Source: an uncultured Planktomarina sp. (GTDB lineage: Bacteria > Pseudomonadota > Alphaproteobacteria > Rhodobacterales > Rhodobacteraceae). From it: 64,000 nucleotides of DNA. This document shows, one piece after another, positions 62,976-64,000 of the stretch (its first letter is position 1; each line of letters starts with the position of its first letter). A program made the position numbers and the translations under genes. The stretch covers positions 124,001 through 188,000 of the forward strand of contig CAJJBP010000009.1 of assembly GCA_905182425.1 (NCBI GenBank), read 5' to 3'. The notes beneath the pieces were generated by a model that ran no database searches, was not told the origin of the DNA, and worked only from the letters and a program-made list of their open reading frames with translations.

Positions 62976-63128
62976 ACCTCAGTGAGGCAAAAACTAAAAA
63001 ACTGCGGTCGGAAACTTAAATTTTTTCTCGATTAAAAAGTTAAAAAAAATAAGCTTATAAATAACTCAAATGATAATTAGCTTAATAATAATTATTATAC
63101 CGTTATATTTGAAATAGCAGATTTTTAA

Positions 63129-63160
63129 TGGTGGGTCGTGAGAGGCTCGAACTCCTCGAC
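63129..63160 (-). other. Degenerate tRNA 3' end, attachment-site candidate
   Basis: On the minus strand the sequence reads GTCGAGGAGTTCGAGCCTC followed by TCACGACCCACCA: a T-arm with the TTCGAGC loop, the acceptor 3' strand ACGACCC, discriminator A and CCA. The end ACGACCCACCA is that of bacterial tRNA-Lys. The T-stem is imperfect and no D-arm or acceptor 5' strand precedes it, so this is not a whole tRNA gene. Elements that integrate into tRNA 3' ends leave such partial copies at one border. Confidence 0.55.
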
Positions 63161-63257
63161 TTTCTAATATAATTAAAGCTTTATGTTAATTAATATACTG
63201 ATATATATGCATTTTTATACTATTACTTCATTTAATCTTAATCACTTAATCTGTAAA

Positions 63258-63285
63258 AGTAATGTCTATAGTAATGTCCATAGTA
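63258..63285. repeat. 12-bp tandem repeat, two units plus partial third
   Basis: AGTAATGTCTAT (63258-63269) is followed directly by AGTAATGTCCAT (63270-63281) and AGTA. The units differ by one base. It lies between the tRNA-like remnant and the 3' end of the polymerase-like gene, where integrase arm-type sites or iterons would be expected, though two units is a small number. Confidence 0.45.
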
Positions 63286-63312
63286 CTTGCATTCTGTTTA
63301 GATACTTGGCAG

Positions 63313-64000
63313 TTATTTTTTGTACTTCTTGTACTTCTTAGGCATTAATATCTCATCTGGCGTGTACTGCACAGACGTTGATTTACTAGGTTTAACATTG
63401 AAGAACTTGTTGTGTTTATTCAGTCTGTTTAGATACCCAGTAGTTCTAATCTGGGCTTTAGGTAGATCAGCCATACGATCTAAATAGAAAACATAATCTA
63501 AGTGTCTCCACGCAACAGCGTCTTGATACATAGGCATGTTCTGTTTGTATTTAGTCACATCCTGCCCTGTGATGGAAACCCAAGCATCTTTCATAGCAGT
63601 TGAAAGTTTATCACGTTGGCTAGTTTGAACTATGAAACTGTCGTGGACAGAAAGCACAGGCGTATTACTCAGTAAGAAACGCTTGATTACAAACTCAACA
63701 ATCTTTCCATCTAAGTTCATTAGCTTCGTACCAGCACCAGTAGCTATCTGATCTGCGATAATGCTGTGCCTTGCTTTGATGCTATCAAGTATTTTACTCA
63801 GCACAGGGTTAGTAAAACTGAACTCTTCGTCCAATAAAGAGTAATCAAACTCTGATCTAAATGCTTTAAACAACGAAGCTTCATCACGAGCATTTAACGC
63901 TAAAAGAAGTAGTTTCTTAACAATCTCCCTAGCAACTTTACTGTCATCAATTCCAGCAACAGCAATGTCATATGGCCCTACTTGGTTTTCTTTCCAGTAA
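63313..64000 (-). CDS. C-terminal part of a large protein with a polymerase-like VHDSF motif (element-associated), cut by window edge
   Basis: The frame is open from the right edge to the stop at 63313 (about 228 residues visible). Upstream of the first possible start it continues as YWKENQVGPYDIAVAGIDDS and KKLLLLALNARDEASLFKAF, so the gene begins outside the window. The core TGAGTKLMNLDGKIVEFV, then NTPVLSVHDSFIVQTSQRDKL resembles the end of single-subunit polymerases: helix O-like segment, then motif C (HDS in T7 RNA polymerase, HDE in family A DNA polymerases). It ends in a basic KKYKKYKK tail. I recall proteins of this kind beside integrases and annotated hypothetical. Function is unproven; a replicase of the integrated element is my inference. 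Confidence 0.6.
   Translation of the reverse strand, partial: YWKENQVGPYDIAVAGIDDSKVAREIVKKLLLLALNARDEASLFKAFRSEFDYSLLDEEFSFTNPVLSKILDSIKARHSIIADQIATGAGTKLMNLDGKIVEFVIKRFLLSNTPVLSVHDSFIVQTSQRDKLSTAMKDAWVSITGQDVTKYKQNMPMYQDAVAWRHLDYVFYLDRMADLPKAQIRTTGYLNRLNKHNKFFNVKPSKSTSVQYTPDEILMPKKYKKYKK

Follow-up and report, generated by a model that had tools for sequence, protein, structure and literature searches.

At the right edge of a 64,000-nucleotide stretch of DNA (the window), an open reading frame carrying a VHDSF motif is cut off by the boundary. It is the C-terminal part of a gene predicted to encode a minimal superfamily-A polymerase, and the gene lies with a tyrosine integrase on an element integrated at a tRNA-Val gene. 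We hold with moderate confidence that this polymerase, of the TV-Pol kind, and the integrase make up the backbone of the small element, and that the polymerase copies the element while it is excised. The protein family is known in print and is hardly studied. What the present analysis adds is the set of att-defined islands that carry integrase and polymerase, their connection with phages, ICP1 among them through its ORF100, and a His/Asn signature at the active site.

An intact gene for a predicted polymerase crosses the window edge

The window corresponds to G000:C9:124001-188000, and its contig extends past it. A reading made from the sequence alone had picked out a 228-residue C-terminal ORF bearing LMNLDGKIVEFVIK and then PVLSVHDSFIV. 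The ORF (window 63313-63999, minus strand, open at the right window edge) indeed carries both in that order. It matches PHROG 4756 ("unknown function") at E = 6.5e-28, and the whole protein does so at 2.1e-50; hence the ORF is not a product of chance. The full gene, G000:C9:187313-188929 (L002:2314-3930), has an ATG start, zero internal stops and 538 codons for amino acids.

No Pfam family was found in the 538-residue protein. PF00940 (RNA_pol) appeared at sub-threshold level only, with E = 0.042 and 13.1 bits against a cut-off of 22 (E = 0.012, again sub-threshold, for the 228-residue fragment alone), and PF00476 (DNA polymerase I) gave no match at E ≤ 1. The genome's own PolA is encoded elsewhere, on G000:C7. 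A second family member occurs in the same genome (L274:13414-14778, on G000:C4) as an open frame of 455 residues, 25% identical; neither a tRNA nor a family integrase was seen in its 20-kb stretch, and low-complexity repeat ORFs lie downstream of it, near the contig end.

The surroundings had been described as AT-rich, and they are: the GC content is 0.33-0.39 in 1-kb windows that cover the polymerase gene and the DNA 3' of it, versus 0.40-0.47 to the right of tRNA-Val. A tandem repeat claimed for this region is likewise there, and is too short to mean much (Table 1).

Table 1. Features of the element within the window
Feature	Window position	Strand	Remarks
Distal attachment site	63126..63155 (L002:2127-2156)	-	30/30 bases identical to the tRNA-Val(TAC) 3' end region, G000:C9:196721-196750
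tRNA-Val element, window part	63126..64000	.	Whole element G000:C9:187126-196750, 9,625 bp with both repeats
12-bp direct repeat, two copies, one mismatch	63258..63281	.	Between att site and polymerase 3' end; no function shown
C-terminal part (228 aa) of 538-aa predicted polymerase of TV-Pol/divPolA2 type	63313..64000	-	Gene extends to G000:C9:188929 (= window 64929)
Predicted motif C codons (VHDSF)	D430 63640-63642; H429 63643-63645	-	H in 83/84 and D in 83/84 full-length relatives
Predicted motif B, fingers	63892..63930: R334 63928-63930, K338 63916-63918, N346 63892-63894	-	K in 84/84, R in 80/84, N in 81/84

The gene lies on an element integrated at tRNA-Val

What had been called a tRNA-end remnant is an exact copy of the tRNA-Val(TAC) end and serves as the distal attachment site. 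It lies 9,595 bp from the matching end of the tRNA-Val gene itself (L002:11725-11800). Between the two, besides the polymerase, lie genes for a glucosaminidase, a DUF418 membrane protein and a PG-binding/peptidase protein, a resolvase fragment and, next to tRNA-Val, a tyrosine integrase. By Pfam, AlpA and a DUF3987/DUF5906 primase were absent from the ten ORFs scanned. The integrase is broken, aligning in three frames to the 555-residue integrase of locus L094, and the window's copy is therefore probably stranded, though its polymerase is intact.

Two congeners (G656 and G665) have an empty site, in which the Lon gene and tRNA-Val are followed by the next chromosomal gene. In a third (G661), about 10 kb separate tRNA-Val from a copy of its end, both integrase and polymerase are in pieces, and the chromosomal gene that follows is the one found at the empty sites. 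The chromosomal neighbors we take, by eye, to be Lon, PGAM, an M20 peptidase, PIMT and TolC. Computation thus gave the att brackets at the tRNA together with empty and occupied sites in congeners. With an end repeat, an integrase and an empty site all observed, we conclude that this is an integrative element in a tRNA gene.

Two further observations concern the same place. In G671 (L273:2755-7076) the tRNA-Val site holds another insert, about 4.5 kb long, that has a resolvase-like ORF and no family member. In the window itself, the segment 61755-63125, which separates tRNA-Asp from the att site, is unlike the flanking DNA that congeners have here, and hence a rearrangement or further insertion occurred in it.

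The closest relative, L094, comes from Rhodobacteraceae bacterium IMCC1909. Its gene order is tRNA-Thr, a full-length, intact integrase and the polymerase; no repeat of the tRNA-Thr end was found beyond the polymerase.

Catalytic motifs and predicted fold

The sequence-only reading had likened VHDSF to the motif C of family A polymerases and T7-type RNA polymerases, and had asked for a second catalytic Asp upstream, a motif B Lys and a palm domain. All three were found, the palm in the predicted structure of a relative. The motif A Asp lies upstream of the HDS motif in 84/84 full-length relatives, with a spacing from motif A to motif C of 136 residues in the window protein, and the window encodes an RxxxK motif with the Lys in every relative (Table 1). 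A hairpin Arg (R256 in L094 numbering) adjoins a predicted strand pair and is also present in 84/84. Five columns are invariant among 28 diverse aligned relatives: R266, R280, D294, K338 and D430 in window protein numbering. The D of a DPY, found in 72/84 full-length relatives, is a candidate for the conserved fingers Asp of TV-Pol.

Two positions differ from bacterial PolA. Motif A +5 is His in 81/84 relatives and aligns to a Glu of PolA; the residue at +8 from the motif B Lys is Asn in 81/84 and aligns to a Tyr. The protein is also unlike PolA in that it has no Pfam match and no exonuclease domain was found in it. In a homologue from G142, which has a 1.4-Mb genome (L033; L066:7212-8570), inspection by eye shows no motif B Lys, and KDK where other members have HDS; this copy may be domesticated or in decay. 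The protein of G215 that by eye is its PolA matches PHROG 4756 weakly (2e-4).

We predicted the structure of the L094 protein, a 67% identical relative, and the window fragment formed one row of the first alignment. AlphaFold gave a pLDDT of 87.7 and a pTM of 0.87 for the full length (85 sequences), and 94.4 and 0.90 for the core. In Foldseek searches of the PDB, the best 50 listed rows were all family-A DNA polymerases, both for the full length (best E = 8.5e-5) and for the core (6.7e-6), so that the predicted model has a family-A palm. Normalized by query length, TM-scores were 0.19-0.29 for the full protein and 0.32-0.52 for the core, and the relation to family-A polymerases is therefore remote. 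Among viral structures the matches included a Barba31A protein labelled DNA polymerase, with T7-type RNA polymerases lower in the list.

Sequence comparison at this depth was less telling. Scores from hhalign were 30-37 against PolA and 33.5 against T7-type RNA polymerase, with probabilities of just 3-13%; the controls scored 22 (integrase) and 15-19 (six shuffles). PolA and RNA polymerase sets score 16 against each other, and hhalign is therefore weak at such distance. As in family A (PF00476), the GR hairpin, the motif A Asp and the RxxxK of motif B aligned in register with PolA, and motif C has its HD. Sequence searches of the PDB with the window protein or profile A2 returned no polymerase (best A2 match, E = 0.088, to another protein).

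Outside the core, the N-terminal ~160 residues of the predicted L094 structure have a winged-helix-like order of helices and strands. Profile A2 matched, in this region and not significantly, 1xma, a solved "predicted transcriptional regulator" (E = 0.13). This domain may thus be winged-helix-like. A two-helix coiled-coil thumb was not evident in the predicted secondary structure, the one level at which it was sought.

Nine of 11 polymerase pairs had dN/dS values of 0.09-0.20, and one of the other two was saturated. The window gene compared with L094 gave 0.126 at a dS of 1.88, which is near saturation. By these computations the family appears to be under purifying selection, and alignments and model together indicate a palm and fingers core with its catalytic residues present.

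Relation to TV-Pol and divPolA2

Is the family new? The sequence-only reading had proposed a little-described polymerase family. The predicted polymerase fold stood; the idea of an undescribed family we dropped, two descriptions having already been published. TV-Pol (Iyer, Abhiman, and Aravind 2008, Biol Direct 3:39, PMC2579912) are, in the accessible portion of that paper, minimal superfamily-A polymerases of mobile elements, with an absolutely conserved hairpin Arg, two palm Asp, RxxxK, and integrase or resolvase neighbors. The authors predicted, from other elements, a primase plus polymerase. The window family resembles TV-Pol as described there in its core motifs, its length (400-600 residues), its bacterial mobile elements and its adjoining lambda-type integrases or resolvases; Rhodobacterales and Paracoccus stand in the paper's species list. 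It appears to differ at the N terminus, which looks winged-helix-like; the same portion of the paper describes, besides a two-helix thumb, an N-terminal domain that in a subset of TV-Pol is all-helical. The words tRNA, attachment and satellite are absent from the paper's main text.

We also looked at Ma-LMM01. An ORF with the motif order, which we assumed to be the TV-Pol paper's member, ranked first for three family profiles, weakly (E = 0.03-0.8; 0-1/500 shuffles reached the score), and a sequence search of Ma-LMM01 for the family found nothing at E ≤ 1. Four TV-Pol features were found and this direct link is weak; hence the filing with TV-Pol is made mainly by shared features.

The second description, divPolA2 (Yutin et al. 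2024, Virol J 21:200, PMC11348598), is of the phage branch, for which the accessible part of the paper suggests a repair DNA polymerase or an RNA polymerase. The window protein and a phage member both find Barba phages, with 1-3 matches per record beside a regular polymerase, which places it by homology in the same family as divPolA2. Phage copies are the paper's subject; the terms "integrative," "bacterial genomes" and "chromosom" are absent from it, and TV-Pol is mentioned once, as background. We therefore assign the protein to divPolA2 by homology, and to TV-Pol chiefly for the features the two have in common. We provisionally found no published paper that joins the two or describes such att-defined islands, in a search mostly of journals open without subscription; the accessible portions of PMC10448857, PMC6715854 and PMC3861242 hold nothing on this protein.

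A class of islands at tRNA genes

A pattern scan of genome_contigs (84,980 species) yielded 212 relatives, of which 79 loci were kept. Going by record title, most of these belong to SAR116, Rhodobacteraceae, Rhodospirillaceae and further Alphaproteobacteria and a few to other groups (Nitrosomonas, Comamonadaceae, Neomarinimicrobiota), and many of the bacteria that host the islands are marine. PHROG 4756 matched in 24/289 genomes of the window's class (a few of the matches weak, and one of them the PolA of G215) and in 0/14 controls. Profile A2 matched in 24/398 genomes of the phylum, 23 of them in the window's class.

A direct repeat of a tRNA end, at least 15 bp long, was present at 33/103 loci scanned. 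The printed repeat rows enclosed the polymerase in 41/42 cases, in a scan that places the polymerase centrally by design; some loci contribute two or three rows each, and the two rows of L165 pair different tRNA genes over 15 bases and are not att sites. We kept 32 elements of 2.5-15 kb, at tRNAs for Val, Thr, Ser, Leu, Gln, Glu, Gly and Cys, leaving out L144, on whose short contig no integrase was found. The loci having been collected by their polymerase, its presence in 32/32 is a matter of selection. A tyrosine recombinase is present in 31/32, in keeping with the earlier suggestion of carriage by integrative elements, and the next most frequent gene family in just 4. The smallest element with integrase and polymerase, L158, measures 4,982 bp.

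The association also held in whole genomes. PF00589 lay within 8 kb of 15/23 polymerase loci, against 0.78 expected, a few of the matches (including that of the window's element) being below the curated cut-off; the loci came from 18 of the 24 PHROG 4756 genomes, six with weak, partial or PolA matches having been excluded. At 8/23 loci no integrase was found within 12 kb. Counting duplicates, 62/106 loci had a tyrosine recombinase in the fetched flanks. By eye, the nearest one pointed toward the polymerase in 57/62 and away in 5/62; 28 of the 57 were upstream on the same strand and 29 downstream on the opposite strand. The 106 include the window locus twice (L002, L067), and four contigs, judged by their length, are duplicated among both the 106 and the 103 loci (L050=L139, L051=L148, L052=L116 and L057=L153); none of these duplicates is among the 32 elements.

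Integrase and polymerase distances were correlated across 28 elements (r = 0.60; 0/5000 permutations). Among distant pairs the correlation was nearly gone (r = 0.17), and partners have therefore been exchanged. Among the matches listed, the cargo is mixed: methyltransferases, restriction enzymes, Sel1 repeats, resolvases and metabolic genes. These tallies take in the best 25 of 31 and 25 of 56 Pfam families, 25/75 PHROGs and 25/280 PADLOC models, with Pfam covering 198/207 cargo proteins and PHROGs and PADLOC a second set (109). Looking for a replication origin near the polymerase gene, repeat and conserved-block searches found no iterons and no shared noncoding block.

Relatives in phages and plasmids

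With the window protein as query, tblastn matched 241 phage records, 115 of them Rheinheimera (Barba) phages; a phage query matched 288. PHROG 4756 matches both the window protein and a Barba phage record. A single-protein scan of viral_contigs found no relative. Eleven phage records hold 1-3 family matches each, two of these matches being short. PF00476 matched in 10 of the 11 (8 over the cut-off and two more weakly), and the one remaining record, from a Barba phage, is annotated with a DNA polymerase of a different kind.

ICP1 ORF100 is a family member (L173:8482-10149). In ICP1 2017_Dha_C a divergent homologue (L176:5356-6660) stands where ORF100 does, with gp97 on one side and gp103 on the other; the polymerase and its small neighbors have undergone allelic replacement among ICP1 isolates. 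Vibrio phage 193E37-1 has three copies, in one of which (L011:4890-6158) FDE replaces HDS and Glu replaces the motif A +5 His.

Four plasmid records matched the family. Separately, in the 21,261-bp contig G105:C14 (L065), a unit of 8,949 bp is repeated, with 4 mismatches in the final 8.7 kb of the comparison; the contig is probably a multimeric assembly of a small circular replicon. The contig encodes RepA_C, a ParA-like ATPase, a resolvase, a D12 methylase and the polymerase. Since RepA_C adjoins the polymerase, the latter is not the sole replication protein there, and we rejected the idea that it always is.

Discussion

What does the polymerase do for the island? A role in island replication is likely, and it is in this sense that we infer the label "replicase." Replication is the most economical reading because no genes recur but those for the integrase and the polymerase, and because there are other small elements in which an integrase is coupled with an enzyme for priming (PMC10803314). 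We infer every step after integration. The integrase would excise the element, and the N-terminal domain would bring the enzyme to the element's DNA. The core would then make primers, short DNA or both, so that the element could replicate while excised, with host or helper-phage enzymes supplying the rest of replication. The element would finally reintegrate at a tRNA.

Might the enzyme instead be cargo, a defense, anti-defense or repair polymerase carried by islands and phages? The phages that hold a family member beside their regular polymerase speak for this, as do the variable phage neighborhoods in the accessible text of PMC11348598, the restriction-modification genes of some islands, the two divergent homologues that share one place in different ICP1 isolates and the RepA next to the polymerase on G105:C14. 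We nevertheless consider an accessory role rather unlikely: the polymerase (by selection) and the integrase are the only genes found in more than 4/32 islands, islands of 5-6 kb with little other content retain the polymerase, and no PADLOC model matched more than 1/28 family members. Nor do we think it likely that the protein is a DNA-dependent RNA polymerase transcribing the genes of the element or phage, as T7 RNA polymerase does. Yutin et al. leave that possibility for divPolA2 (PMC11348598, in its accessible part), and the sub-threshold PF00940 matches, the T7-type enzymes lower in the viral structure list and the His where bacterial PolA has Glu all point the same way. The top PDB folds, however, are DNA polymerases, and a search of the gene's upstream region revealed no shared promoter-like block. 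That the window's gene is a decayed or noncatalytic relic is very improbable. The element's integrase is broken, and some relatives are broken (G661) or lack motif residues (L033 of G142), but here the frame is intact, every motif residue is present and the low dN/dS relative to L094 argues against decay.

Replication of the excised element, the reading we favor, has a parallel in the PICMI satellites (PMC10803314). According to the accessible part of that paper, they are about 6 kb long, pair an integrase with a replication enzyme, lack capsid-remodelling genes and in some cases carry defense cargo, traits that the islands appear to share; deletion of the primase of the 6-kb PICMI lowers the number of excised copies. 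They differ, by the same partial text, in having AlpA and a DUF3987/DUF5906 primase and in lying next to fis, whereas the window's element sits at tRNA-Val. Tycheposons and other marine tRNA islands share the tRNA border, the tyrosine recombinase, variable cargo and marine hosts; the words polymerase and primase are absent from the texts of both PMC10872708 and PMC11389934, in which passages treat such islands.

A wider proposal is tentative. Elements with integrase and TV-Pol may form a distinct and widespread class of integrative elements in Alphaproteobacteria, with a two-gene backbone, and could be phage satellites. They would replicate when excised through a thumb-poor family-A primase-polymerase with the His/Asn signature and its own DNA-reading domain, and the copies in lytic phages (ICP1, Barba) would share in the same exchange between islands and phages.

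For the 2008 prediction that TV-Pol acts as primase plus polymerase, we found no published test. The bracketed islands are compact objects for one, with exact ends and empty sites, and IMCC1909 has a full-length integrase beside the closest relative, in an island whose far end was not found. The islands also tie phage divPolA2 genes that had gone unexplained, ICP1 ORF100 among them, to islands of bacteria. Should the enzyme prove able to prime its own synthesis, it would rank as a family-A polymerase of very small size, and one that would inform how the DNA and RNA polymerases of the superfamily diverged.
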